Shown here: one piece after another, positions 43,298-63,800 of the stretch
Layout of the letters: every line of letters begins with the position of its first letter
How positions within the stretch are numbered: position 1 is the first letter of the stretch
Source: Acinetobacter calcoaceticus
Lineage (GTDB): Bacteria; Pseudomonadota; Gammaproteobacteria; Pseudomonadales; Moraxellaceae
DNA length: 64,000 nucleotides
Assembly: GCF_900520355.1 (NCBI RefSeq)
Contig: NZ_LS999521.1
Location: 2,418,001 to 2,482,000, forward strand
Reading direction: 5' to 3'
The notes under the pieces: model-generated
Told to the model about the DNA's origin: nothing
The model's database searches: none
The model's input: only the letters and a program-made list of their open reading frames with translations
Program-made: the position numbers and the translations under genes

Positions 43298-44194
43298 TTA
43301 TCTAAAAGAAAGACGGGCCACCAAAAAATCTATAAATGCCCGAGTTTTGGCCGGTAAATTAGAAGTACTAGGGTAAAGTAATTGAATATTTTGTAACGGT
43401 AATGAGAAATCAGGAAATAACCGAATTAAGCGGTTTTGTTGAATATCTTCATCAACTAACCATGCTGGGCAAATCGCAATACCTAATGATGACAGCGCCA
43501 TTTGATGAATTGCTGTTACCGAGTTTGATTCATACTGACTTCGAATAAAAGGTAATGAATATTTTTCCCCTAAATTATTCTGCAAAATATATTGTGAATC
43601 TTGCCAATTTAATAAAGTGTGACCAATCCAAGGAACACCTGCCAAATCGGATATATTTTCTACAGAATGGTCTTTTATAAACTGCGGAGTAGCCACAAGA
43701 TAAATTGGATATTCTCCGATTTTTCGAGTTTTTAGAGATGAGTTTTTTAAATTTCCTAGCCGTATAACAAGATCTAACTTTTCAGTGACTAAATCATCAA
43801 GGGAAGAATTAAATGAATACTGTAAGCGTAAATGTGGATAAAGCCGACAAAATTCAGGAAGTAAAGGCAGAATAAAACGTTGACCAAATTCATTGGTTGA
43901 TGAAAAACGTAAAGTGCCTGTAATACTTGTGCCTAAATGCTGGCTTCGCTCAAAAGCCTCATCAATCTGAAGCTGGATTTGTTTAAAATCTTGATAAAAA
44001 TGCTGGCCTATTTCAGTTAATGCAATATTACGGGTATTCCGAATTAAGAGACTTGTATTTAACTGCTTTTCTAATTGTTTTATATCAATACTGACCATTG
44101 AGCGGCTCAGCCCCAAAATTTCGGCAGCCTTCGTAAAAGATCCGGAATCGACAACTTGTAAAAAACTAGTAATTTGCTTGAGACTTTTTTGCAC
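43298..44194 (-). CDS. LysR-family transcriptional regulator
   Basis: 298 residues. The N-terminal winged helix (about 5-62: FLQVVDSGSFTKAAEILGLSRSMVSIDIKQLE) is classic LysR, followed by the linker helix and an inducer-binding domain (about 90-295). The subgroup resembles regulators of efflux or detoxification genes (CrgA/AaeR-like by layout). It is divergent from an MFS transporter with about 98 bases between the start codons, so it most likely controls that gene. Confidence 0.92.
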   Translation of the reverse strand: MQKSLKQITSFLQVVDSGSFTKAAEILGLSRSMVSIDIKQLEKQLNTSLLIRNTRNIALTEIGQHFYQDFKQIQLQIDEAFERSQHLGTSITGTLRFSSTNEFGQRFILPLLPEFCRLYPHLRLQYSFNSSLDDLVTEKLDLVIRLGNLKNSSLKTRKIGEYPIYLVATPQFIKDHSVENISDLAGVPWIGHTLLNWQDSQYILQNNLGEKYSLPFIRSQYESNSVTAIHQMALSSLGIAICPAWLVDEDIQQNRLIRLFPDFSLPLQNIQLLYPSTSNLPAKTRAFIDFLVARLSFR

Positions 44195-46027: not shown

Positions 46028-46077
46028 CAACTAAGTCATATCGCTCGCCTTAAAGATGGCACTTATTTTGCTTAACA

Positions 46078-46105
46078 ATATTACGTTTTATGAAAATCGT
46101 AATAC
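46078..46105. promoter_or_regulatory. NikR-like operator 1 (before permease)
   Basis: ATATTAC (46078-46084), 14 bases, GTAATAC (46099-46105). Same half-sites and spacing as the elements at 51432-51459 and 57803-57836. It ends 24 bases before the start of the ABC permease gene. Confidence 0.65.
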
Positions 46106-46129
46106 TGATCAAAATGGGGAGCTGTCGAT

Positions 46130-47074
46130 ATGGGTTATGTTGCAAAGGAATTTACGCGAAAGAACAAGCTGATTCTCAGTATTTGTTCTTTCGTTATTCC
46201 AATATGTCTTTGGTGCGCAATCAGTTACTTACCTTTTGTTTGGCATCCTCAAGTACAAATCACGAGTTCGGGAAGTGTTTCTTACTTACAAGTGGGAAGT
46301 CGCATTGATAAAAATGTGTTCTATCTCGAAGCACAAAATGCAGTCAATCGAAATTCTGCACCACCACAAGGTATTTTAGTCAATCCGATTTATTTACCCG
46401 CTCCTCATGAAGTCGCTCAGGCTTTGGTCACCGCCTTTACCACACCACCAGAGCAACCCGATTCGCCGTGGTTTCATCAAAGTTTATGGCACAGTATTAA
46501 ACTGGTATTTTCAGCTTTTTTTATCTCTTCGCTTATGGGGATTCCACTCGGTATTTTGTGTGGTTTTTCTAAGCGCATATCGCTGTTAACAGAGCCTTTT
46601 GTCGAGTTTTTCCGTTACTTGCCTGCACCGGCTTTTGGCGCACTTGCCGTGGCAATTTTAGGAATTAATGACGCACCTAAAATCGCAATTATTGTGATTG
46701 GTACACTTTTTCAGCAAATTCTCATTATTGCCAATACCACCCGAATGGTTGATCGAAGCTTAATTGAAGCTGGCTATACGCTTGGCACCAATAAGCTGAA
46801 GAGTTTATTCCATGTAGTGATCCCCGCTGCCTTACCCGATATTTACCGTGACTTACGTGTGTTATTGGGCTGGGCATGGACCTATTTAATTGTTTCAGAG
46901 TTGATTGGTACGACTTCGGGTATTACATGGTTTATTACCCAACAAGCACGCTATCAAAACTTTGACAATGTCTATGCGGCCATTCTGATTATTGGGGTGA
47001 TTGGTCTGGTCTGTGATTGGATATTAATGAAGTTAGGTGAGCGGATGTTCACTTGGAAAGTAGGAGCAAAATAA
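46130..47074 (+). CDS. ABC transporter permease, guanidine/urea-carboxylase locus
   Basis: 314 residues. An N-terminal membrane helix (about 12-35) and a periplasmic loop (about 36-115) precede five to six helices with a BPD_transp_1 fold. The EAA loop is in LIEAGYTLGTNKLKSLFHVVIPAALPDIYRDL. It is close to the nitrate/taurine/pyrimidine permease group annotated near urea carboxylases. The ribosome site is GGGGAG. Its TAA overlaps the ATG of the ATPase gene by one base. A conserved operator-like repeat lies 24 bases upstream. Confidence 0.88.
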   Translation: MGYVAKEFTRKNKLILSICSFVIPICLWCAISYLPFVWHPQVQITSSGSVSYLQVGSRIDKNVFYLEAQNAVNRNSAPPQGILVNPIYLPAPHEVAQALVTAFTTPPEQPDSPWFHQSLWHSIKLVFSAFFISSLMGIPLGILCGFSKRISLLTEPFVEFFRYLPAPAFGALAVAILGINDAPKIAIIVIGTLFQQILIIANTTRMVDRSLIEAGYTLGTNKLKSLFHVVIPAALPDIYRDLRVLLGWAWTYLIVSELIGTTSGITWFITQQARYQNFDNVYAAILIIGVIGLVCDWILMKLGERMFTWKVGAK

Positions 47075-47955
47075 TGAATGATTCAACATTTAACGCGCAT
47101 GAATACTTTCAAAAAATTTATGAACGTCCTGTTATTTTAGAAGCTAAACAACTGAGCCAAGTCTTTAAGCATGGACAAAGCGAACGCACTGTTTTAAATA
47201 AGCTCGATTTAAAAATTCATAAAAGAGAATTTATTTGTGTGATTGGCCCTTCCGGCTGTGGTAAATCGACCCTGAGCCGTGTCATTGCAGGTTTAGACCC
47301 ATATCATAGTGGAGAAGTTTTAGTAGACGGCGAATGCATTACAGGCCCATGTCCTGAACGCGGTATGGTGTTTCAGGGCTATACCCTTTTCCCTTGGAAA
47401 ACCGTAAAAGAAAATGTGATGTTTGGTCCGCAAATGCGAGGAGCCAGTCAAATGACAGCAGAGGCGCAAGCCCGTGAATGGATCAATATTATTGGTTTAG
47501 AAAAATATGAAAATCAGTATCCACATCAACTTTCTGGTGGCATGAAACAGCGCGTTGCAATTGCGAGAGCCTTGGTCAATCAACCTAAAATTTTACTGAT
47601 GGATGAACCTTTTGGTGCGCTCGACCCTCACACTCGCCAAAAAATGCAAAAACACTTAATGGATTTATGGCAAAACATTGATATCACCATTATTTTTGTC
47701 ACCCATGACATGGATGAAGCTATTTTACTTGCAGACCGAATTGTGGCACTCAAAGCCAACCCAGGCGAAATTAAGGAAATTATTGAAGTGAATTTACCGC
47801 GCCCACGTTCACTGGACTTAATGAGTACCCCTGAGTTTAAACAGCTCCGCTCACGGGTAGATTATCTGGTACACGCCGAAGAGGACGAGCTTGACCCAGC
47901 TTTGCAAGATTTACCAAAAATTCCGCGTATGACTCAAGTCAGTACAGAAAAATAA
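47074..47955 (+). CDS. ABC transporter ATP-binding protein
   Basis: About 293 residues. Walker A GPSGCGKST, Q-loop in MVFQGYTLFPWKTV, signature LSGGMKQRVAIARAL, Walker B ILLMDEPFGAL and the switch histidine in FVTHDMDEA are all intact. It belongs to the TauB/SsuB group. Start chosen at the ATG at 47074 (TAATG overlap with the permease stop, AGGAG just upstream). It energises import of the substrate bound by the lipoprotein at 48007-49029, encoded on the opposite strand. Confidence 0.92.
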   Translation: MNDSTFNAHEYFQKIYERPVILEAKQLSQVFKHGQSERTVLNKLDLKIHKREFICVIGPSGCGKSTLSRVIAGLDPYHSGEVLVDGECITGPCPERGMVFQGYTLFPWKTVKENVMFGPQMRGASQMTAEAQAREWINIIGLEKYENQYPHQLSGGMKQRVAIARALVNQPKILLMDEPFGALDPHTRQKMQKHLMDLWQNIDITIIFVTHDMDEAILLADRIVALKANPGEIKEIIEVNLPRPRSLDLMSTPEFKQLRSRVDYLVHAEEDELDPALQDLPKIPRMTQVSTEK

Positions 47956-47965
47956 GAAAGACATT

Positions 47966-47995
47966 AAAAAGCCCAAGCTGAACTTGGGCTTTTTT
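47966..47995. terminator. Bidirectional terminator between convergent operons
   Basis: AAAAAGCCCAAG and CTTGGGCTTTTT with a 5-base loop, flanked by A and T runs. It separates the convergent ATPase and substrate-binding-protein genes. Confidence 0.9.
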
Positions 47996-48006
47996 ATTGA
48001 TTGGGC

Positions 48007-49029
48007 TTATTTGAGTTGTTCTATGAGTGTCGGATAAATCAGCCCATCTACATTTTGCTCAGTTTTATAAATACCATTTTCAACATTAAATTTATTTACG
48101 TGATAAGTCGAACCATAAATCGAGTCAAAACCATCTGATTTAGCAAATACCTTTTTATTGGCATTGATATCTAATAGATGCGTCCCGCTAACCATCAACT
48201 CATATTGTTTCGGGTCAACCCCTGAACGGTTTGCCATGATTTTAACTGCATCGGCATGGGTTGCAGGGTCATTAATATATTTAACTGTTTTGTCCCACAC
48301 CTGAATGATTTTTTTCCATTCTTCTTGATGAGCAGTTAAATGACTCATGTTGACGGTCAGAGTGTCATAAATTAAACCCGGCTTGTCTTTAGAGGTATAG
48401 ATAATTTTAGAACCCGCTACGGCTTTTAATGCTTGACCTGCAACAGGTTGCCAAACAGCAATCGCAGAAATATCTGGGCTATTGAACACTTGAGGTAATT
48501 GGTTGGTTGCTGAGTTTACCAGCTTCACGTCATTGGCTTTAATGTTATGGTCGGTTAAAGCTGTTGCTAGTAAAAGATGATCAACCAAGCCTTTTTCAAC
48601 GCCGATTGATTTTCCTTTTAAGTCTTGAATGGTATTAATTCCCTCTTTTGCAATAATGACATCATTACCCGCAGAATAATCTGTTGCCATGATCATCATG
48701 CCTTGAGTGCCGCCCGAAGCTGTTACCAAGTTATCGCCATTGGTGACCAAAACGGCATCAAGCTGATTTGCTGAAAAAGCCGAAAGTGAAGCCGAATAAT
48801 CAAACCACTTAAACTCTACATTTAAGCCGGCTTCTTTTAACCAACCTTTTTCAATAGCCACCTGCCAAGCCACCCAGCCCGGCCAATCGCTATAGCCAAT
48901 GGTAATCGGTTTTGTATTTGTGGCTGCCTGAGCGTCTTGTTTAGCCTCAGGGACTTTAGCCGTATTGTCACACCCACCCAATACAACTGCCGATAAAATA
49001 GATACGGATAAAAACGCTTTTTTAATCAT
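48007..49029 (-). CDS. Substrate-binding lipoprotein of the ABC transporter
   Basis: 340 residues. A lipoprotein signal ends at LGGC (about residue 19). The mature part is a type 2 periplasmic-binding (NMT1/SsuA-like) domain starting KPITIGYSDWPGWVAWQVAIEKGW. Homologs beside urea carboxylase genes are usually called putative urea-binding proteins. With a guanidine-I riboswitch in the locus, guanidine or a derivative is at least as likely. Its ATG overlaps the atzF stop by four bases, so it belongs to the regulator-atzF operon. Confidence 0.87.
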   Translation of the reverse strand: MIKKAFLSVSILSAVVLGGCDNTAKVPEAKQDAQAATNTKPITIGYSDWPGWVAWQVAIEKGWLKEAGLNVEFKWFDYSASLSAFSANQLDAVLVTNGDNLVTASGGTQGMMIMATDYSAGNDVIIAKEGINTIQDLKGKSIGVEKGLVDHLLLATALTDHNIKANDVKLVNSATNQLPQVFNSPDISAIAVWQPVAGQALKAVAGSKIIYTSKDKPGLIYDTLTVNMSHLTAHQEEWKKIIQVWDKTVKYINDPATHADAVKIMANRSGVDPKQYELMVSGTHLLDINANKKVFAKSDGFDSIYGSTYHVNKFNVENGIYKTEQNVDGLIYPTLIEQLK

Positions 49030-50849
49030 ATAGAAACTTCCCCAACATTTTTACTAACAACACTTTGAGCGGTTTGATTGAGTGACTGTATATAGGCTCG
49101 CCAGCCTCCAAAATGGCTAATATCGGTTGCATCATGAATGGCATAAGCTTCGCAGATAAAACCTTTGACCCATGTTCCATCTTTTAATTTAAGGTTGCCA
49201 ATACCAAGTGGTGCAGGCACTTCAGCCACAATGGCTCCGAAATTTGCAAAAGGAACATCCCACACTTCAACTTCAATTGACGTACCTGTCGCATCGCATT
49301 GCAGCCCCGGTTTTGGTGGTTTGGTATTTTTTAGGGCAAAGAGTTTATAGGCTTCTGCTGTCTGGGTTTTCTTGAGCAAAGTAGCATGGCGACTAGTCAG
49401 CTGAAAATTAAGTGGCATGCCTGTTAAGTGCGCTCCGACGACAGCAAGCTGCACTGAATGACTCGATTGGATGTTTATACTTTTTTGATAATGTTGAGTT
49501 GATTTACCTAAACTCAGCAATGTTTCGGTTTGCCAGAGCTGGGCAAAATTGGTCAGTGCCTGATCGTGCCAAGCAGGTGCAATAAAAGTTACGCCACTTG
49601 GTAAACCGTCTTTACGCAGTACATTTGGTAAGGCCAGTGCAGAAAGATCGGCAAAATTTACAAAGTTGGTATAGGCCCCCATGTGCGCGTTTTTAGTTAG
49701 CGGGTCGGCTTCAACTTCGGCAATGGTGTAAATGGTTGGTGCGGTTGGAACCATCAATGCATCAAAAGGCTGAAGTGCCAAATTAATTTTTCGGGCCAGT
49801 ACTGCACGGTTATATTCCGCTTGCAGTACATCTGTTGCTTTGAAGCGATCTGCCTGCGCAATAATCTGGGCAATAACCGGATGGGCTTTGTCACGTGTTG
49901 TCATGCGTTCAACGGCGACTGTTCTTTCTGCTACCCATGCATCATTATAAAGTGCAGCAGCAAGCTCATTAAATGCGCTGAAATCAATACTCTCAACTTC
50001 ATAACCTAGTTTTTTTACACGTTCAATTGCAACTAAAAAGGCTTTTTCAGATTCAAGATCACCATAAAACTCAAGCTGGGCAGGAATGGCAATTTTTCGT
50101 TTAGAAAACTGAGTTGGTACATTGGCTGGATGTGCTCTTGAATATTCATCTGTTTCATCATAGCCCTGCATTAGACTGGCAACTGTCCAAGCGTCATCGA
50201 TATGCAGTGCAAAAATAGAAATGACATCAATGGTCCGACAAGCAGGAATTAAACCTGTAGTAGAAAACCAGCCCTTCGTGGGCTTCAGGCCTACAATATT
50301 ATTATGGCCCGCAGGAACGCGTCCTGACCCCGCCGTGTCTGTCCCCAAACTAAAAGGCACAATACCGTTGGCAACTACCACGGATGAACCTGAGCTTGAC
50401 CCACCGCTGATATATTCAGGGTTAAAACTATTTTTTACTGCACCATAGGGAGAACGAACCCCGACCAGTCCAGTCGCAAACTGATCTAAGTTGGTTTTGC
50501 CCACCACAATCGCCCCTGCTTTTTTCAACTTGGCAACTACAGCAGCATCTTGTGTCGCTAAATATTGAACCTCTTTACAGGCAGCAGTCGTGTGAAAGCC
50601 AGCGACATCAATGTTGTCTTTAACTGCAAATGGCACACCGTATAGAGGTAGGTCAGCAATATTCTGGTCTTTTAAAACATCAATTTGCGATTGGATCTGC
50701 TCATTCGATGCAACTTCAATCCATGCATGGTCATCATTTTTAATTTCTGCAACATAGGTAATCAGATCTTTAAGATGGATTTGCCCGTTTTCATATGCTG
50801 TTTTCCAGTCTTGGATTGTCCATAAATTTTTCAACACGCTACTCCTCAT
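49026..50849 (-). CDS. atzF: Allophanate hydrolase
   Basis: 607 residues. An amidase-signature domain (about 30-440) has the Ser-cisSer-Lys triad visible in VPFAVKDNID (Lys) and GGSSSGSSVVVANG (serines). The C-terminal AtzF domain (about 475-607) is also present. It hydrolyses allophanate to two ammonia and two CO2, the last step of the urea-carboxylase or guanidine route. The ATG at 50849 directly follows the regulator stop. However, AGGAG occurs inside the first codons (50844-50848), so translation may begin at the GTG at 50837 or the TTG at 50834. Confidence 0.92.
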   Translation of the reverse strand: MRSSVLKNLWTIQDWKTAYENGQIHLKDLITYVAEIKNDDHAWIEVASNEQIQSQIDVLKDQNIADLPLYGVPFAVKDNIDVAGFHTTAACKEVQYLATQDAAVVAKLKKAGAIVVGKTNLDQFATGLVGVRSPYGAVKNSFNPEYISGGSSSGSSVVVANGIVPFSLGTDTAGSGRVPAGHNNIVGLKPTKGWFSTTGLIPACRTIDVISIFALHIDDAWTVASLMQGYDETDEYSRAHPANVPTQFSKRKIAIPAQLEFYGDLESEKAFLVAIERVKKLGYEVESIDFSAFNELAAALYNDAWVAERTVAVERMTTRDKAHPVIAQIIAQADRFKATDVLQAEYNRAVLARKINLALQPFDALMVPTAPTIYTIAEVEADPLTKNAHMGAYTNFVNFADLSALALPNVLRKDGLPSGVTFIAPAWHDQALTNFAQLWQTETLLSLGKSTQHYQKSINIQSSHSVQLAVVGAHLTGMPLNFQLTSRHATLLKKTQTAEAYKLFALKNTKPPKPGLQCDATGTSIEVEVWDVPFANFGAIVAEVPAPLGIGNLKLKDGTWVKGFICEAYAIHDATDISHFGGWRAYIQSLNQTAQSVVSKNVGEVSI

Positions 50850-51284
50850 TTAGTCATTTTGCTGTATAGGCGGCATCACGGCATCCATCAGTTCTAAATG
50901 CCCTTTGATCACCCCTTTAAGCACAATAAATTGCTGGCTAATTTGTCTGAGTTCAGAACTCGCCCCCTGCATTAACATGACTTGCAATATCTTTTGTTGG
51001 TCGAGCTGGATATGAAGTGAACTAATTACTTGTGTTAAAAACTGCTGTTGTAAATCAACCAATTGATTGCGCAAGGTCATTTGGCTAGCGTCATAAAGCA
51101 GCGTCAATGTGCCCACCATAACTTCATTGGCCTGTGCCTGCTCCGCAATCAGGTGTTTATTAATCATGTCAACAATGGCTTGCGAACGACTTTCGTAGTT
51201 CTGCTCGACAATTTTCTGATCGAGTGCGTTGAGTGTCGTTTCAGGTACGGTAATACTGATTCGAGCTAACTTTTGTTTTGCCAC
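50850..51284 (-). CDS. NikR-like ribbon-helix-helix regulator lacking the nickel site
   Basis: About 144 residues starting at a GTG (51284) with AAAGGA eight bases upstream; the frame is open further upstream but has no other ribosome site. The N-terminal ribbon-helix-helix (about 6-50: ARISITVPETTLNALDQ, RSQAIVDMI) is followed by an ACT-like domain (about 58-130) that aligns with E. coli NikR. Of the NikR nickel ligands only His87 is kept (in SSLHIQLD). His76, His89 and Cys95 align with Gln, Gln and Ile. It probably senses something other than nickel. It shares its operon with atzF and is the natural candidate to bind the three repeated operators. Confidence 0.82.
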   Translation of the reverse strand: MAKQKLARISITVPETTLNALDQKIVEQNYESRSQAIVDMINKHLIAEQAQANEVMVGTLTLLYDASQMTLRNQLVDLQQQFLTQVISSLHIQLDQQKILQVMLMQGASSELRQISQQFIVLKGVIKGHLELMDAVMPPIQQND

Positions 51285-51288
51285 AGTC

Positions 51289-51414
51289 TTATCCTTTTGT
51301 TTTAGTCGGATAATTGTTTTGTTTGATATATACGCCTGCACGAACGCTGAGCAATTCGACTAAAAAGGCTTTTAAATTTTGCTTTGGTTGAGCCACGGGT
51401 TTTACATCGTTCAT
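51289..51414 (-). CDS. 41-aa small protein upstream of the regulator
   Basis: An ATG at 51414 follows AGAGGT (about 6 bases upstream). It opens 41 codons reading MNDVKPVAQPKQNLKAFLVE and ending YPTKTKG. The stop at 51289 lies just before the GTG of the NikR-like gene, and the ribosome site of the regulator (AAAGGA) is inside the last codons, a translational coupling arrangement. Family not recognised; an amphipathic helix is likely in the middle. It is the first gene after operator 2. Its length is below common gene-calling limits. Confidence 0.6.
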   Translation of the reverse strand: MNDVKPVAQPKQNLKAFLVELLSVRAGVYIKQNNYPTKTKG

Positions 51415-51431
51415 ATCGCACCTCTAGCTTG

Positions 51432-51459
51432 GTATTACCAAATTCAGTTTTTGTATTAC
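51432..51459. promoter_or_regulatory. NikR-like operator 2 (before small ORF and regulator)
   Basis: GTATTAC (51432-51438), 14 bases, GTATTAC (51453-51459). GTATTAC and its reverse complement GTAATAC differ only at the central base, so this is a near-palindrome with the same geometry as operators 1 and 3. It lies 18 bases before the small ORF that heads the operon. Confidence 0.6.
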
Positions 51460-51541
51460 TGATAAGAGATGCAGAAAATGTGCCAGTTTTTAAGCGCGGT
51501 TTTTGATGGATTGGATGGGTATTTATGAGTGATTTTTGGGC

Positions 51542-51572
51542 AAAAAAAAGCCCCATGCACAAGGATGGGGCT
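51542..51572 (-). terminator. Terminator of the HxlR gene
   Basis: AGCCCCAT and ATGGGGCT form an 8-bp stem with an 8-base loop, followed on the minus strand by eight T. It lies about 35 bases after the HxlR stop and insulates it from the nitrogen operon. Confidence 0.85.
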
Positions 51573-51606
51573 AATATTTACGTTTTTAGAAACTGATTTT
51601 TTAATA

Positions 51607-51960
51607 TTATTTCGGATTGATCATCGTATGCGCCCATACCGATAAAGACTCTAAAACAGGCTTAAAAGTCTGGCCCAATTCGGTCATTTCATAGACAACT
51701 TTAATCGGTGCTTTTTCACCATATATAGTTCTAGAGATTAAGCCACTTTGCTCTAATTGTTTAAGTTGAAGACTTAATGTCATTTCAGTAATTGTAGGAA
51801 TGAGTTGCTTGATTTCATTAAAGCGTTTCGGTCCATCTTTTAGATAATACAAAATCACGCATTTCCATTTTCCACCCACCAAGTCCATAGCCATACTGAT
51901 ATGACATGGATAAGTTTTTCCATTCATGCTGATTTCACATTTATTTTCAGTATTTGCCAT
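51607..51960 (-). CDS. HxlR-family winged-helix regulator
   Basis: About 117 residues. The hallmark LVGGKWKCVILYYLKDGPKRFNEI, with the preceding PCHISMAMD, is diagnostic of HxlR, and the wing (SGLISRTIYGEKAPIKVVYEMT) follows. The ATG at 51960 is preferred, with AGGTGG about seven bases upstream; an in-frame GTG at 51972 overlaps that site. Such regulators usually respond to electrophiles or quinones. It is divergent from a flavodoxin-like oxidoreductase gene and shares an operator region with it. Confidence 0.9.
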   Translation of the reverse strand: MANTENKCEISMNGKTYPCHISMAMDLVGGKWKCVILYYLKDGPKRFNEIKQLIPTITEMTLSLQLKQLEQSGLISRTIYGEKAPIKVVYEMTELGQTFKPVLESLSVWAHTMINPK

Positions 51961-51972
51961 TTTTAACGCCAC

Positions 51973-52020
51973 CTATCAACTTTGATAGTTATTGTACACC
52001 CATACTATAAAAATTATAGT
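51973..52020. promoter_or_regulatory. HxlR operator region
   Basis: Two inverted repeats lie between the divergent starts: CTATCAA-N2-TTGATAG (51973-51988) and ACTATAA-N3-TTATAGT (52004-52020). Each is a plausible HxlR site, and together they could control both genes. Confidence 0.55.
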
Positions 52021-52052
52021 TACTATGATTTTTATAGCTACAAGGCATTATT

Positions 52053-52589
52053 ATGGCTTTACTTATTTTGGCCCATCCCTACTACGCTCAATCGATTGCA
52101 AATAAAACGATTGTGAATGAACTTATAAAAACCTATCCAGACCTCGAAGTACGAGATATTTTCCAGCTTTATCCGGACTATCAAATTGATGTGAATGCTG
52201 AACAAGAGGCCTTGTTACGCCACGACACCATCATTCTGCAATACCCAATGTTCTGGTTTAATATGCCGGCAATTTTGAAGTTATGGTTTGATGAAGTTTT
52301 TACTTATCAATTTGCTTATGGCTCTCAGGGCGATAAATTAAAAGACAAAAAAGTCATTATTAGTATGACAGTCGGGCAAAAAGAAGCCGACATGGTGAAT
52401 GACCGAGAAAACTTAGCAGATAGCTTTTTAAAAGCAGTTCAATATTCAATTCAATATACGCAAATGCAGTTAAGTGCCACTTACTTACTTTATGACGTAT
52501 CACCTTTATCGGGTAATTCAGAGTCTAAAATTGAGTTAAAAGCAGTTGAACATGGTCATAAAGTATTAAAGCATTTGACCGAAGCATAA
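52053..52589 (+). CDS. NAD(P)H-dependent oxidoreductase, flavodoxin-like fold (KefF/MdaB type)
   Basis: 178 residues. The N-terminal LILAHPYYAQSIANKTIVNEL is the FMN phosphate loop of the family. LQYPMFWFNMPAILKLWFDEVFTYQFAYG is the conserved core, and KKVIISMTVGQ follows. Members reduce quinones and protect against electrophiles. It is divergent from the HxlR regulator, the standard regulator/target arrangement. The pair sits inside the guanidine locus without an obvious link to it. Confidence 0.9.
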   Translation: MALLILAHPYYAQSIANKTIVNELIKTYPDLEVRDIFQLYPDYQIDVNAEQEALLRHDTIILQYPMFWFNMPAILKLWFDEVFTYQFAYGSQGDKLKDKKVIISMTVGQKEADMVNDRENLADSFLKAVQYSIQYTQMQLSATYLLYDVSPLSGNSESKIELKAVEHGHKVLKHLTEA

Positions 52590-52592
52590 TAT

Positions 52593-52625
52593 AAAAAGAG
52601 AGCATCGATATGGATGCTCTCTTTT
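52593..52625. terminator. Bidirectional terminator
   Basis: AAAAGAGAGCATC and GATGCTCTCTTTT form a stem with a 6-base loop, between the convergent oxidoreductase and carboxylase genes. Confidence 0.85.
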
Positions 52626-52628
52626 GGT

Positions 52629-55600
52629 TTAAGCGACAGGCGCCAAGGTAAATAGCACTTGTCCCGTTTTTACAGTTTGCCCTTTTTCAATGGTAATGGT
52701 TTCAACTTTCATGCGTTCAGGCGCAATAATCGGGATTTCAATTTTCATTGCCTCAATCACCGCAAGAGTTGCACCTTCTTCAACAATATCTCCCGATGCA
52801 CATTCGATTTTCCAGATTGAGCCTGGCATATGCGACTCAACTGCACAGCCCCCTTCAGGAATAACTACGGTTTCACCTTCATCAACAGCATCTAGGCTTT
52901 CAGAGATATATTCTTGCAAACCGGCTTCATGCCAACGGCGGCGTTCAGCCTCAAAGTTGGCTTGTTGCATGTCTTTAAAGGCTTGGATGCTATCTTGATG
53001 TGTTTTTAAAAACTCGTTGTATTCTTTTAAATTGAGCACACCATCTTCAATGCGAAGTTGTAGACGGCCCGCCTTAAAGTCTTCACGCATTTGCAGAAGT
53101 TCTGTTTCAGAGACTTCATAAAACTTAACTTGGTCAAAAAAGCGCAGTAGCCAAGGCTTACCCTCTTCGAAGTCGGCATTTTTACGGTAACGGCTCCACA
53201 TTTGAGTGGTACGGCCAACAAACTGGTAGCCACCCGGCCCTTCCATACCGTACACACACATATAAGCACCGCCGATACCCACGGCGTTTTCAGGTGTCCA
53301 AGTTCGTGCTGGATTATATTTTGTAGTGACTAAACGTTGGCGTGGGTCGAGTGGTGTCGCAACGGGTGCGCCTAAATACACATCGCCTAAACCCATCACC
53401 AAATAGTTCGCACTATAGACCACATTTTTAACCGCTTGCTTTGAAGCTAAGCCGTTAATACGACGAATAAACTCGACGTTATCTGGGCACCACGGCGCAT
53501 CTGGACGAACAATTTGCGTGTAGCGTTCGGTGGCAAGCTGAGTTTGTGAATCTTCCCAAGCTAAAGGTAAATAGACAGTCCGTGAAGGCACCTGCATATT
53601 TTGAATGTCGGGTAATTCGGCTTCTGCTTGTTGAAGTTTCTGTAAAAGCTCAAGTTGATCGAGCTGGATTGAATCAAAATGAATTTGTAGTGAACGGATG
53701 CCCGGTGTTAAGTCGATAATGCCCTGAATGTTTTGATCTTTGACCCATTGCATGAGTGCATGAATACGGAAGCGTAAATTTAGGTCGAGTACTAACTCAC
53801 CATATTCCACCAACAAATAGCTATTTCCTGCTGGTCGATAGGTAATACTTGGCAAGTCGCCCTCACCTTGCAAAGTTGCCAAAACTGCATCTTTTAGAGT
53901 ATCGGATTCTGCTTGAATGGCTGGATTAAAATCAATTAGCGTTGTATCAGCCGCGGTTAAGCTTTGATGATATTTTTGGTCCAGTGCTTTTGCTTGCGCA
54001 TAACTTACAGGCACAAATTTGACTTTATCGCCTGCTTTCAATTGCCCGATTTTCCAAAGCTCGGAATGAATCACCACCGCAGGACATACAAAGCCACCTA
54101 AGCTCGGACCATCGGGACCCAAAATAATTGGCATATCGCCCGTAAAATCAATCGCACCAATCGCATAAGCGTTGTCGTGAATATTGGAAGGATGTAAGCC
54201 TGCCTCACCCCCATCTTCACGTGCCCACTCAGGTTTTGGCCCAATTAAACGAATGCCTGTACGGCTTGAGTTATAGTGAATTTCAAACTCATTGGCAAAG
54301 AACGTATCAATATCTTGTTTGGTAAAAAAGTCTGGTGCGCCGTGTGGGCCATACATCACGGCAATTTCCCAGTTTTGGGTAAAGCTAGGAATTTGTGCTT
54401 GAGCTAAAGTCGTGGTCGAGTGAGTGGAATATTCAGTAATCGGTAACATATCACCAATTAATAGATTACGGCCTGCGTGCCCACCAAACTGACCCAAAGT
54501 AAAAGTAGCCTGTGACCCTAAATAGTCAGGAACATCAAAACCGCCTTTAATGCCAATATAGCTGCGGCAACCTGAACGTATAATGCCACATTTTAAAATC
54601 TGACCTTTTTGAACGTTAATGGTTTGCCACATCGGCACCAGCTCACCATCAAGCGTTGATGGCATATCACCACCTACAATCACAATTTGGCTGTCGCAGT
54701 GAAATTTTAAGGTTGGACCTTGTAAGGTGCATTCAAGCCCTGCTGTATTTGGTTCATTGGCTAAAAGCTGGTTTGCCACAGTTAAACTGAGTGGATCGAT
54801 GGCACCTGATGGTGGTACACCAACATCCCAATAACCCAATCGGCCTGTTACGTCTTGAATGGCGGTTTGAATACCAGCCTGTAACACCTCAATTTTTTGT
54901 GTTTTCCATTCAAATGTATTTAAAAAACGAGTGGTTTGAGTTCCAAGCGCAAACACATCGCAAGCAATAATATTTTGTAAATATTCCAGATTGGTTTCGA
55001 TACCTGCCACTTGCGTGTTTGCAAGACTAGCACTCATTGCCTGTATGGCTTGCTCTCGGGTTGCAGCAGTCACAATGATTTTGGCAATCATCGGGTCATA
55101 AAAAGACGACACCGTTGACCCTGTTTCTACCCATGTTTCAACACGCGCTTGTGGGTCAAACTTAACATGAGTGAGTAAGCCTGCACTCGGTTGGAACTGT
55201 TTAATCGGGTCTTCGGCATAAAGACGAACCTGAATCGAATGTCCTGTTGGCTCTAACTTTTCAGTGGGTACTGACCAGTCGCCACTTGCTAAAGTGACCA
55301 TCCACTCAACTAAATCGACACCAAACACTTGCTCGGTCACGCCATGTTCGACTTGTAAACGCGTGTTGACCTCTAAGAAATAAAATTCTTGGGTTTCAGT
55401 GTCCATGACAAACTCAACTGTGCCTGCCGAGCGGTAGTTCACCGACTGCATCAGCTGAATAGCAACTTTTTGAAGATAATCACGTTGCTGTTCATTTAAG
55501 TGAGGCGCGGGTGTTTCTTCAATGACTTTCTGATTACGGCGTTGCACTGAACAATCACGCTCACCCAAGGCTAAAACTTGCCCTTGCCCATCCCCAAATA

Positions 55601-56234
55601 TTTGAACTTCGATATGGCGTGCATGTTGTACAAATTTCTCTAGGTACAAACCAGCATCTTTAAAATTGACCTGTGCTAAATAAGAAACGGTTTGATAAGC
55701 ATCTTTTAATTCGGTTTCATTCCAGACCAGACGCATGCCAATACCACCACCACCCGCCGTACTTTTAAGCATAACCGGATAACCAATACGGGCCGCTTCG
55801 GTCAAGGCCTCGGCTTCATCGGCAAGTAGTGAACTACCCGGAAGTAAAGGTACGTTGCTTTTAATTGCGAGTTCACGTGCAGTATGTTTTAAACCAAAAT
55901 CGAGCATTTGGCTTGAAGTTGGCCCAATAAAAGCAATGCCTTGGCTTTCACACAAATCACAAAACTCAGCATTTTCAGACAAAAAACCATAACCGGGGTG
56001 AATGGCTTCTGCCCCCGACTGTTTAGCAACCTCAAGGATTTTTTCAATATTTAAATAGCTTTGATGAGCAGGCGCAGGACCAATCAAGAAAGCTTCATCA
56101 GCCAAAGTCACATGTAGAGAATCACGATCGGCTTCGGAGTAAACTGCAACCGAAGCGATGCCGAGTTTTTTTAGGGTACGAATTACGCGACAGGCAATTG
56201 CACCACGGTTAGCAATTAGAACTTTTTTAAACAT
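52629..56234 (-). CDS. Biotin-dependent guanidine/urea carboxylase
   Basis: 1201 residues in a single chain. The biotin carboxylase part (1-450) includes MLKSTAGGGGIGMRL (ATP grasp) and the EVNTRLQVEHGVTE signature. The carboxyltransferase part (about 460-1010) contains AHS2/KipA-like and AHS1/KipI-like segments. The C-terminal biotinyl domain ends with biotinylated lysine in EAMKIEI. Enzymes called urea carboxylase that sit under a guanidine-I riboswitch with CgdAB-type partners carboxylate guanidine. That context is present here, so guanidine is the likely main substrate. It is the third gene of its operon, two bases after the preceding stop. Confidence 0.93.
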   Translation of the reverse strand: MFKKVLIANRGAIACRVIRTLKKLGIASVAVYSEADRDSLHVTLADEAFLIGPAPAHQSYLNIEKILEVAKQSGAEAIHPGYGFLSENAEFCDLCESQGIAFIGPTSSQMLDFGLKHTARELAIKSNVPLLPGSSLLADEAEALTEAARIGYPVMLKSTAGGGGIGMRLVWNETELKDAYQTVSYLAQVNFKDAGLYLEKFVQHARHIEVQIFGDGQGQVLALGERDCSVQRRNQKVIEETPAPHLNEQQRDYLQKVAIQLMQSVNYRSAGTVEFVMDTETQEFYFLEVNTRLQVEHGVTEQVFGVDLVEWMVTLASGDWSVPTEKLEPTGHSIQVRLYAEDPIKQFQPSAGLLTHVKFDPQARVETWVETGSTVSSFYDPMIAKIIVTAATREQAIQAMSASLANTQVAGIETNLEYLQNIIACDVFALGTQTTRFLNTFEWKTQKIEVLQAGIQTAIQDVTGRLGYWDVGVPPSGAIDPLSLTVANQLLANEPNTAGLECTLQGPTLKFHCDSQIVIVGGDMPSTLDGELVPMWQTINVQKGQILKCGIIRSGCRSYIGIKGGFDVPDYLGSQATFTLGQFGGHAGRNLLIGDMLPITEYSTHSTTTLAQAQIPSFTQNWEIAVMYGPHGAPDFFTKQDIDTFFANEFEIHYNSSRTGIRLIGPKPEWAREDGGEAGLHPSNIHDNAYAIGAIDFTGDMPIILGPDGPSLGGFVCPAVVIHSELWKIGQLKAGDKVKFVPVSYAQAKALDQKYHQSLTAADTTLIDFNPAIQAESDTLKDAVLATLQGEGDLPSITYRPAGNSYLLVEYGELVLDLNLRFRIHALMQWVKDQNIQGIIDLTPGIRSLQIHFDSIQLDQLELLQKLQQAEAELPDIQNMQVPSRTVYLPLAWEDSQTQLATERYTQIVRPDAPWCPDNVEFIRRINGLASKQAVKNVVYSANYLVMGLGDVYLGAPVATPLDPRQRLVTTKYNPARTWTPENAVGIGGAYMCVYGMEGPGGYQFVGRTTQMWSRYRKNADFEEGKPWLLRFFDQVKFYEVSETELLQMREDFKAGRLQLRIEDGVLNLKEYNEFLKTHQDSIQAFKDMQQANFEAERRRWHEAGLQEYISESLDAVDEGETVVIPEGGCAVESHMPGSIWKIECASGDIVEEGATLAVIEAMKIEIPIIAPERMKVETITIEKGQTVKTGQVLFTLAPVA

Positions 56235-56236
56235 GG

Positions 56237-56890
56237 TTACACCCCTTCCGCTTCACGGACAACCAGTTGAATTTTGGTTGGGTTATAGGCATTACATGGG
56301 TTGTTCAGCTGCGGACAATTAGAAATTAAAACGATCAAATCCATTTCTGCCCGTACTTCTACATATTTACCTGGTGCTGAAATTCCGTCATCAAATTTAA
56401 GCTGACCGTCTGGCGTTACTGGCACATTCATAAAAAAGTTAATATTTGGACCAATATGACGAACATTTAATCCATGCTTTTTTGCAATTGGGTGTTTTGC
56501 CAAGGCATACATAAAATTGTTACGGCAACTATGCATGGGATACGTTTCATGTGCATAGCGAACCGTATTACTTTCACATGAACAAGCACCACCAATGGTG
56601 TCATGGCGACCGCAGTTATCATCATGAATAACCGCAATTGGGCGACCCAAGTTACTGTAGAGCTTCGTACCCTTTTCTAAATAAATGTGTTGGTTGATCG
56701 CCAAAGTATCCATTGCGCTATAACGCTCAGTCGGGTTTTCGGCACTCATAAACAAAGTATCGACCGCTTGGTTTCCCTCAAGATCAATAATTCGAAAATA
56801 TTGGCCTTTTTTAACCTCACACATCCACGCTTCACCCGCAGGACAAACTTCATTTAAAACTGCTTTTTCAAATGATTGTAAAATTGTCAT
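56237..56890 (-). CDS. Urea-carboxylase-associated protein (carboxyguanidine deiminase subunit)
   Basis: 217 residues of the DUF1989 type: GQYFRIIDLEGNQAVDTLF, a metal- or substrate-binding HDDNCGRHDTIGGACSC, and HPIAKKHGL with NFFMNVPVTPDG. The family was called urea carboxylase associated. In guanidine-using bacteria the two paralogs form carboxyguanidine deiminase (CgdA and CgdB), converting carboxyguanidine to allophanate and ammonia. Which of the two this is I cannot say. It is paralogous to the next upstream gene. Confidence 0.87.
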   Translation of the reverse strand: MTILQSFEKAVLNEVCPAGEAWMCEVKKGQYFRIIDLEGNQAVDTLFMSAENPTERYSAMDTLAINQHIYLEKGTKLYSNLGRPIAVIHDDNCGRHDTIGGACSCESNTVRYAHETYPMHSCRNNFMYALAKHPIAKKHGLNVRHIGPNINFFMNVPVTPDGQLKFDDGISAPGKYVEVRAEMDLIVLISNCPQLNNPCNAYNPTKIQLVVREAEGV

Positions 56891-56905
56891 GATGCTTCTC
56901 CTGAT

Positions 56906-57646
56906 TTAAATATTGCTAAGCGCGTAGTAGCGGGCTGTGTTTTGAAACGCACGCTGATTTTGCGAACACGCATCACGACAAATATCGCTGTCTGTTAGAG
57001 AATTGGCTTTAAATAAACTGAGTTGAATATCGGCAGGTTGATAGGTTTGGCTGGTGTCTAAACCATGCGGCGCGGCAGATAAAAATAACAGGCAGTCCAT
57101 TTCAAAACGCAGCTCAATGGTTTGATCGGTGTTATCTGAATTTACATAAGACAAAGCACCGCTTTCATCTGCCGCAACTTTAGAAAACAGGTTAACCGCG
57201 GCACTAAGGTCTTGGCTGGCAAGTCCGTATTTACACATTTCAATGAGTAAACTATCTAAGCCGTTTTGGTACATATCATTGCGGGCATCTTGAAATGTAC
57301 AAGTACCAAATTGCTTTTGAATCTGTTCTGGTCGGCTTGGGCCACAAAGTGCATCGTTCCAACCATGATCGTCATGAACAATTGAAGCCATGACACGGCC
57401 AAGGTCTGAATACAGCACATTGGAAGCTTTTAAATAGGCGGTGTGTTGCCCTTTTAAAGTGTCGGGCATGTTAAAACGTTCCAGCACATCGGCAGCATTT
57501 ACACAAAATACGGACACGTTTGCATGAGCGCCAAGTGATTTAAATCTAAGAATTGTTCCTTTTTGAATACGGCCCGACCAGTGATGTCCACCGGGTAAAA
57601 GTTCGGTCCAAATCGCCTGATTGTTATGATAACTTACAGTGTTCAT
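56906..57646 (-). CDS. Urea-carboxylase-associated protein, second paralog (carboxyguanidine deiminase subunit)
   Basis: 246 residues, DUF1989 family. GTILRFKSLGAHANVSVFC, SIVHDDHGWNDALCGPSRP and the later NLFSKVAADESG correspond to the same segments in its neighbour. Cys pairs near the C-terminus (CRDACSQ) are extra. It is the first gene of the operon, with an AAGGAG ribosome site at 57652-57657. The guanidine-I riboswitch ends about 15 bases upstream of that site. It acts with the downstream paralog as a heteromeric deiminase, by family knowledge. Confidence 0.87.
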   Translation of the reverse strand: MNTVSYHNNQAIWTELLPGGHHWSGRIQKGTILRFKSLGAHANVSVFCVNAADVLERFNMPDTLKGQHTAYLKASNVLYSDLGRVMASIVHDDHGWNDALCGPSRPEQIQKQFGTCTFQDARNDMYQNGLDSLLIEMCKYGLASQDLSAAVNLFSKVAADESGALSYVNSDNTDQTIELRFEMDCLLFLSAAPHGLDTSQTYQPADIQLSLFKANSLTDSDICRDACSQNQRAFQNTARYYALSNI

Positions 57647-57671
57647 AGCTACTCCTTGTCGGATAGTTTTA

Positions 57672-57762
57672 GACTTCCTCCCGGGCTTTTATCCCTCCGT
57701 GTAGTTCGCTAGGAACCGTGAACTCTCGGTCCAGTCATACATGAAGTATCGGAACCCTAGAT
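57672..57762 (-). ncRNA. Guanidine-I riboswitch (ykkC leader)
   Basis: Read on the minus strand the leader has CTAGGGTTCCG, then ACTGGACCGAGAG, then ACACGGAGGGATAAAAGCCC followed by GGGAG, in the order and spacing of the ykkC class 1 guanidine aptamer. It directly precedes the deiminase-carboxylase operon. No clear intrinsic terminator follows it, so the expression platform may act on translation or on a weak hairpin with the CTATCC segment. Its presence argues that guanidine is the signal for this operon. Confidence 0.9.
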
Positions 57763-57802
57763 CACTTTTGATTGTTTATAACTATGCAAATGACATGCCA
57801 GC

Positions 57803-57836
57803 TTAGTATTACGTTTTTGGTTAAAAGTAATACTAA
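57803..57836. promoter_or_regulatory. NikR-like operator 3 (before riboswitch operon)
   Basis: TTAGTATTAC and GTAATACTAA form a perfect 10-bp inverted repeat with a 14-base spacer. Written as GTATTA-N16-TAATAC it has exactly the NikR geometry (GTATGA-N16-TCATAC in E. coli). It lies about 40 bases upstream of the riboswitch, where the promoter should be. Confidence 0.75.
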
Positions 57837-57934
57837 ACTTGGTCAATTGGGGTGCAATTTAGAGTAGAGAATGGATGGCTGCATAAAAAATAGTGCATTT
57901 TTTAAATTAGCTGCAACTTTAAAACTGATATAAG

Positions 57935-63574: not shown

Positions 63575-63800
63575 GGACTCCTTTGTTAACAAAAGAAATC
63601 CTACCGATCACTGCTAAATGATGGTGGCAGGACGAAAGAGGGTTAGCAGACTGGCAACAAAGAAACCAGCACACCCGAAGGTGTCCCCCTTCCGCCCTAC
63701 CGTAGAGAAAAAGGGGGCGAACGAGATCACGATACACAAAACAAGGCTTCGTATATCGTCTTTGTTAAATAGGGTCTGCTAAAACCCGCTAGCAATGTAG
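63575..63800 (-). ncRNA. C4-like antisense RNA leader (phage type)
   Basis: GC-richer than its surroundings and without long frames. On the minus strand it has a hairpin ACACC-TTCG-GGTGT, then GGTTTCTTTGTTGCCAGTCTGCTAACCC, the motif order I associate with C4 antisense RNAs. Plus-strand TTAGCAGAC (63643-63651) is perfectly complementary to GTCTGCTAA (63774-63782), and TAGG/CCTAC elements recur. C4 controls downstream phage genes by pairing within the same transcript. The Icd-like ORF follows, as in P1-type loci. Confidence 0.45.

Follow-up and report, generated by a model that had tools for sequence, protein, structure and literature searches.

Background

The known guanidine carboxylase pathway comprises a carboxylase, the deiminase CgdAB, allophanate hydrolase and an ATP-binding cassette (ABC) importer, with the Guanidine-I aptamer as its RNA-level control. 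All of these are found in one locus of Acinetobacter calcoaceticus, lying in the 64,000-nucleotide stretch analysed here (the window; contig NZ_LS999521.1, positions 2,418,001 to 2,482,000). The locus differs from the known pathway in having, in addition, a protein regulator with its own operator. This protein, called NikRL here, has the fold of the nickel regulator NikR, and it probably represses, alongside the Guanidine-I riboswitch, the sigma-54 promoters of the genes that take up and assimilate guanidine.

NikR, as known from E. coli, H. pylori and P. horikoshii, shares with NikRL its domain order, its fold and the DNA-binding strand pattern R/(S,T)/(S,T). The operators of both are tandem half-sites in one register, GTATGAC-N14-GTCATAC for NikR and GTAWTAC-N14-GTAWTAC for NikRL. 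Unlike NikR, NikRL has lost the nickel ligands, carries the clade-specific residues M56, Q106, D77 and P138, uses half-sites altered by one base each, and has guanidine genes at sigma-54 promoters as its predicted targets. The promoters resemble the nitrogen promoters of the sigma-54/NtrC type, in which GG-N10-GC elements precede nitrogen-acquisition genes, but a dedicated operator at the promoter sets this locus apart. Urea carboxylase and allophanate hydrolase also occur together in the A. baumannii mum operon, which, in the part of its description available, is under the LysR regulator MumR, includes an NRAMP manganese transporter and is arranged differently (PMC5050338). The words NikR and guanidine are absent from the main text of that paper.

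According to the available part of a 2025 review, no guanidine-sensing transcription factor is known, riboswitches are the only known guanidine receptors besides transporters and enzymes, and regulatory proteins that bind guanidine might be discovered in future (PMC12186494). In the open-access literature we found no paper tying NikR to guanidine or urea-carboxylase regulation, which does not prove its absence in print; the initial annotation of the window, made from the sequence alone, had likewise named no described regulator of this kind. NikRL is a concrete, widespread candidate guanidine sensor with a defined operator.

Three operators of one design

The initial annotation placed three 28-bp elements with a 14-bp spacer in the locus, each at the head of one transcription unit. 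All three are found there, and each does head one of the three units as judged by gene order (Table 1). In operator 3 the symmetric arms reach out to 57803-57836, and the 28-bp core stops 5 bp short of the sigma-54 element, on its upstream side.

Table 1. Features of the guanidine locus, numbered from the first letter of the window
Feature	Position	Strand	Remarks
Sigma-54 promoter-like element TGGCACTTATTTTGCT (GG-N10-GC), transporter unit	46057..46072	+	
Operator 1	46078..46105	+	ATATTAC-N14-GTAATAC; spans about -5 to +23 relative to the inferred sigma-54 start
ABC transporter permease (Perm)	46130..47074	+	BPD_transp_1
ABC transporter ATPase	47053..47955	+	nearest model NtrCD, score below cut-off
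ABC transporter substrate-binding protein	48007..49029	-	nearest model TIGR03427, score below cut-off
Allophanate hydrolase	49026..50849	-	TIGR02713 above cut-off
NikR-like regulator (NikRL)	50850..51284	-	ribbon-helix-helix and NikR_C; Q, Q and I in place of three of the four nickel ligands
Small open reading frame, 41 codons	51289..51414	-	between operator 2 and NikRL
Operator 2	51432..51459	-	GTATTAC-N14-GTATTAC; spans about +1 to +28 relative to the inferred start
Sigma-54 promoter-like element TGGCACATTTTCTGCA, regulator unit	51470..51485	-	
Urea/guanidine carboxylase	52629..56234	-	TIGR02712 above cut-off
Carboxyguanidine deiminase subunit, UAAP2 family (cgdB)	56237..56890	-	TIGR03424 above cut-off
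Carboxyguanidine deiminase subunit, UAAP1 family (cgdA)	56906..57646	-	TIGR03425 above cut-off
Guanidine-I riboswitch aptamer (RF00442)	57676..57771	-	80.2 bits, gathering score 63
Sigma-54 promoter-like element TGGCATGTCATTTGCA, cgdA-cgdB-carboxylase unit	57785..57800	-	
Operator 3	57806..57833	-	0 mismatches; about -59 to -32
NtrC-like palindrome TGCACTATTTTTTATGCA	57880..57897	-	97 bp upstream of the cgdA sigma-54 element; weak evidence

At up to two mismatches, GTATTAC-N14-GTAATAC has four matches in the window, where shuffles lead one to expect 0.20, and none of 100 shuffled windows reaches four. The whole genome (3,934,114 bases in one contig) has four places with at most one mismatch, three of which are the operators (0, 1 and 1). 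A random scatter of the motif over the genome, a possibility raised in the initial annotation, is not what is seen; the fourth place (1 mismatch, 2919822) lies within an open reading frame (ORF) of 669 amino acids about 444 kb away. The window contains 37 half-sites, and pairs of them 0-40 apart occur three times at spacing 14, once at 20 and once at 37. Random 500-bp pieces of window positions 1-45500 never reach two mismatches or fewer (0/600). On the shuffles, the genome scan, the spacing counts and the random pieces, we reject chance as the origin of the operators.

Operator 2 looks like a direct repeat (GTATTAC...GTATTAC). Since GTATTAC and GTAATAC are both common as half-sites in the relatives, the half-site is best written GTAWTAC, which is itself a palindrome about W. 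Such a palindrome would be expected if one symmetric ribbon-helix-helix dimer covers each half. In 1,435,394 bases of NikRL loci outside Acinetobacter, spacing 14 accounts for 41 GTAWTAC pairs and spacing 7 for one; the rest of the range 0-40 is empty, and the reversed control motif gives one pair. The likeness to NikR geometry proposed for the operators is borne out by the DNA ahead of nikA in E. coli MG1655, GTATGAC-N14-GTCATAC, in which the layout is equal and G replaces T in each half.

Among 149 genomes of the same genus, NikRL is matched in 83 (fragmentary or broken in G018 and G063), CgdA in 84 and the permease in 83. At least one promoter was obtained from 67 genomes, and all three with NikRL present from 63 of the 81 genomes with an uninterrupted NikRL; the 18 left out are eight near-identical to that of the window, six from one similar group and four with the locus split over contigs. 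In these 63 genomes the operator is found at up to two mismatches in 61 at Perm, 59 at NikRL and 57 at cgdA. All three promoters have it at up to two mismatches in 52/63 and at up to three in 61/63, so that orthologous loci within the genus carry the operator at the same three promoters. Half-site columns average 1.7-1.8 bits and spacer columns 0.95-1.2. The operator is retained in G122 and G066, where the genes of the locus stand far apart.

One genome, G014, has a fourth, perfect operator shortly ahead of a second substrate-binding-protein gene. This gene lies between the carboxylase and NikRL together with a biuret-amidohydrolase-like gene (L184 5671-7493; NF050097, 251 bits, below the cut-off of 370).

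Sigma-54 promoters and the riboswitch

The operator reading of the initial annotation stands as far as the shared sites are concerned, and it overlooked their placement at sigma-54 promoters and the Guanidine-I riboswitch. Sigma-54 promoters have the consensus context TGGCACG-N4-TTGC around GG-N10-GC. One such element stands beside each operator, and the three score 10-11 of 12 consensus letters. By the -12 rule of these promoters, cgdA transcription is predicted to start at about 57774 (-); the aptamer begins about 3 nt later, which fits the assignment of the element. For the transporter and regulator units the predicted starts are near 46083 (+) and 51459 (-).

The spacing is conserved in Acinetobacter. 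A sigma-54 element scoring at least 9 of 12 lies within 500 bp in 65/65 Perm rows, and in 64 of them the best-scoring element is 4-9 bp ahead of the operator. The operator is 5-6 bp downstream of the element at Perm (57/65 rows), 8-11 bp downstream at NikRL (49/63) and 5 bp upstream at cgdA (63/66).

The genome has genes for RpoN and NtrC. Of the NtrC-like palindromes in the window, that at cgdA scores 11 of 12 and that at NikRL 10 of 12, and none reaches 10 at Perm. Mean best scores compare with shuffled sequences as 9.13 vs 7.80 at cgdA, 8.60 vs 7.78 at NikRL, 7.95 vs 7.73 at Perm and 8.98 vs 7.83 at transporter promoters outside Acinetobacter. Because this enrichment is modest, we infer the role of NtrC rather than read it from its sites.

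The Guanidine-I aptamer, recognised as an Rfam family match, heads the cgdA-cgdB-carboxylase mRNA. It is found on this unit only, with no riboswitch on the transporter and regulator units in the window, and there is one Guanidine-I riboswitch per locus in each of nine Acinetobacter loci checked. We take CgdA and CgdB to be the names of the UAAP1 and UAAP2 products. Their presence and that of the riboswitch suggest that the carboxylase is guanidine-specific. An active-site Asp instead of Asn is given as the mark of guanidine carboxylase versus urea carboxylase in the available part of the review (PMC12186494).

NikRL loci outside Acinetobacter

Family- and order-level searches outside the genus gave two groups of matches, one 39-48% identical (13 genomes) and one 20-32% identical (10 genomes). 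In the former, 11 loci include a transporter promoter, and every one of these carries the operator with 0-2 mismatches; a sigma-54-like element precedes it by 4-11 bp. No operator is found within 500 bp of cgdA in the seven loci examined (best 5-6 mismatches). A Guanidine-I aptamer precedes cgdA in five loci (L248, L251-L253, L255), L254 has a Guanidine-II aptamer between its cgdB and carboxylase genes, and L256 has neither at gathering score. Six loci of the 20-32% group (L257-L262) encode true NikR. They contain none of the guanidine-pathway genes searched, and their operator matches are absent or scattered with 2-3 mismatches at best, none at one or fewer.

Named genomes were also scanned by NikRL alone, and the loci of the best 80 of 160 relatives were taken. 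Among these 80 are Thalassolituus, Methylophaga, Methylobacillus, Methylovorus, Aquabacterium, Parvibaculum and Hyphomicrobium, as well as three metagenome-assembled genomes labelled outside Proteobacteria. Of 65 substrate-binding-protein promoters outside Acinetobacter, 62 have the operator at up to two mismatches (0 in 28, 1 in 31, 2 in 3; the others 3 in 2 and 4 in 1), and a sigma-54-like element lies 3-19 bp upstream of it in 64/65. The conservation that the initial annotation proposed to look for beyond Acinetobacter is seen at the transporter promoter. The three-operator layout is typical of Acinetobacter; in the other genera examined it is mainly the transporter operon that has the operator in front of it, often with the regulator among its last genes. 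cgdA is close behind NikRL on the same strand in 36/80 loci and elsewhere in the locus in 14/80. In the former arrangement the carboxylase may share the transporter operator.

The operator also follows the NikRL gene across genera, which ties the site to the NikRL protein. Among order-level genomes with a close transporter, it is present in 8/8 having NikRL and in 0/10 without (best site 4-6 mismatches), as judged from about 1.5 kb upstream of the permease (313 bp in G490), a range in which a distant promoter could be missed. Three of the ten genomes without NikRL (G459, G420 and G353) still have a sigma-54-like element scoring 11.

The NikRL protein

NikRL combines an N-terminal ribbon-helix-helix with a NikR_C domain; PF08753 (NikR_C) scores 68.3 bits, and the N-terminal domain gives no separate Pfam hit. 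A structure model (predicted local distance difference test, pLDDT, 82.8) matches NikR chains, including that of H. pylori, over about 130 columns. The regulatory domain alone reaches a template modelling (TM) score of at least 0.9, up to 0.94, by target length. In a tree rooted on eight NikRs, 146 distinct NikRLs form one clade with support 0.96. NikRL belongs to a widespread clade partly named NikR by NCBI models: none of the five NCBIfam NikR models scores the window protein above its cut-off, and the relatives L290 and L357 each pass two of the five. Some 'NikR' annotations are probably wrong.

The nickel site of NikR, which we take to be numbered H76, H87, H89 and C95, was compared in an alignment of the 146 NikRLs with eight NikRs (seven found here and that of E. 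coli). All four ligands are present in 8/8 NikRs and in 0/146 NikRLs, and C95 is lost in every NikRL. The window protein has Q, H, Q and I at these positions. In Acinetobacter the first is Q in 56 and H in 8, the second H in 57, S in 5 and T in 2, the third Q in 64, and the fourth I in 50 and V in 14. With its nickel site lacking, the protein cannot be called NikR in the functional sense, and a metalloregulator fold appears to have moved to a non-nickel role. The available part of PMC2667541 names a supplementary NikR tree marking organisms that do not use nickel; some of these may be the NikRL clade.

Two residues, M56 and Q106, never vary in NikRL, D77 and P138 hardly do, and all four are absent or rare in NikR. 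The strand residues R, S/T and T/S, presumably the base contacts, are retained. The NikR-type half-site GTATGAC occurs eight times in Acinetobacter cgdA operators, and it seems that operator and protein have diverged jointly from NikR.

Proposed regulation and its alternatives

The regulon would take three inputs. The first is nitrogen status, all three sigma-54-like promoters being probably driven by NtrC. The second is guanidine at the RNA level, through the riboswitch on the cgdA-cgdB-carboxylase mRNA. The third would be NikRL, a predicted tetramer of two ribbon-helix-helix dimers that would bind GTAWTAC-N14-GTAWTAC. At the transporter and NikRL promoters it would sit over the start site, and from this position repression of open-complex formation is argued. 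The cgdA operator adjoins the -24 element, where NikRL probably represses too and may hinder polymerase or looping. Since operator 2 stands at NikRL's own unit, the protein would also regulate itself. A common regulator of the three units, as the initial annotation had it, agrees with the shared operator and its co-occurrence with the NikRL gene; binding by NikRL is what the DNA sequences suggest.

Guanidine or a close derivative would be the most likely compound to relieve NikRL, and this is the weakest step. What speaks for guanidine is the make-up of the regulon, which is the guanidine pathway and includes a guanidine aptamer. Such relief would give the transporter and regulator units, which have no riboswitch, a guanidine input of their own, and would explain how riboswitch-less importer genes could answer the same signal. 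It is conceivable, at somewhat less than even chances, that NikRL is the first protein transcription factor sensing guanidine, its metal pocket turned into a receptor for a small organic cation (candidate residues M56, D77, Q79 and Q106), occurring across alpha-, beta- and gammaproteobacteria and concealed by the database name 'nickel-responsive regulator'.

Several observations weigh against NikRL as a repressor of guanidine genes at sigma-54 promoters. Taken by themselves, the sigma-54-like elements of the window do not exceed chance in number (7; shuffles average 3.4 and reach 10) and are not rare; they draw their weight from spacing and conservation. The enrichment of NtrC-like sites is modest, and 62 rows of the Perm promoter contain none that scores 10 or more. 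In 11/63 Acinetobacter genomes at least one promoter has 3-4 mismatches to the operator. Operators also persist without a working NikRL (G052 cgdA, 0 mismatches; G063 Perm, 0; G089 Perm, 2), and others in such genomes have decayed (G063 cgdA, 4; G121 cgdA, 4); partly kept and partly decayed, the sites of these four genomes are too few to decide. Three of the four nickel ligands, all except the cysteine, are kept in 14/146 NikRLs. Outside Acinetobacter, 30/80 NikRL loci have no CgdA match in the stretch fetched, a creatininase-like gene is present in 63/80 and a type III glutamine-synthetase-like (GS-III-like) gene in 72/80, and four Hyphomicrobium loci lack all of the guanidine genes searched.

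The creatininase and GS-III company, the missing CgdA and the Hyphomicrobium loci indicate that the effector may be something other than guanidine. NikRL would then repress as proposed and sense another transported compound, such as methylguanidine or a substrate of creatininase, or an intermediate of the pathway, a reading that we regard as plausible and do not favour. The creatininase-family and GS-III-like genes are exemplified by L290 7747-9908 and present in most of L283-L362. They possibly belong to an undescribed amide or guanidino pathway. In the Hyphomicrobium loci they alone accompany NikRL, as its divergent partners across the operator, and GTATGAC-N14-GTCATAC stands ahead of NikRL. 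In Acinetobacter, the ATPase gene is followed by a 2-oxoglutarate dioxygenase-like gene in 43 and by a further gene in 38 of 81 rows (L124 2335-4268). They resemble methylguanidine dioxygenase/lyase in gene arrangement only, as far as the available part of the description goes (PMC12508155). Against another effector stand the guanidine riboswitches and CgdA/CgdB in the same loci.

That NikRL is an activator or architectural factor at sigma-54 promoters, at least at cgdA, is unlikely. In its favour, the cgdA operator lies upstream of -24, at about -59 to -32 and 5 bp from the element in 63/66 rows, where the DNA between NtrC and polymerase loops. The transporter and NikRL operators, however, lie just past the -12 element and over the expected start, which is the usual place of a repressor, with a gap to the element of 4-13 bp in 64/65 Perm and 62/63 NikRL rows in Acinetobacter and of 3-19 bp in 64/65 rows outside it.

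Repression by NikRL as an ordinary nickel-responsive NikR, linking guanidine use to nickel, is very unlikely. It agrees with the fold and operator geometry, with the two scanned non-Acinetobacter relatives that exceed two of five NCBI NikR models, and with the 14 proteins keeping three ligands, in which another metal may be bound. The full site and Cys95 are nevertheless missing from all 146, the window protein falls below every NikR model, and the scanned locus ORFs include guanidine genes and no recognised nickel gene. The six true-NikR loci, in turn, have neither guanidine-pathway genes nor an operator at one mismatch or fewer. To our knowledge, none of the three enzymes of the pathway (carboxylase, deiminase, allophanate hydrolase) is a nickel enzyme. 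Nickel control of the locus is rejected on the loss of the ligands.

Least probable of all is binding of the operators by another protein (LysR, HxlR, NtrC or a nucleoid protein) with NikRL a bystander, for although LysR (43298-44191) and HxlR (51610-51972) regulators are nearby and some operators survive without NikRL, the operator tracks NikRL across genera (8/8 vs 0/10), its geometry is that of E. coli NikR, and HxlR, present in 2/81 rows, is rejected as the binder.

Other features of the locus

The small ORF between operator 2 and NikRL is preceded by the ribosome-binding-like sequence AGAGGTG. A small protein similar to its product is encoded near NikRL in 54/63 Acinetobacter loci, with a core like FLVELLSVRAGxYxKQ and, among the 40 rows listed, 46-83% identity over the aligned stretch.

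Between NikRL and the carboxylase, positions 51607-52589 hold the HxlR regulator gene and a divergent flavodoxin-like oxidoreductase gene. Among the 81 Acinetobacter rows this pair is found in two, the genome of the window and G047; near-identical relatives of the window are outside those rows.

At 63620-63707 on the minus strand there is a C4 antisense RNA (RF01695, 75.6 bits). C4 antisense RNA is known from P1-like phages, and a prophage may begin near the end of the window.

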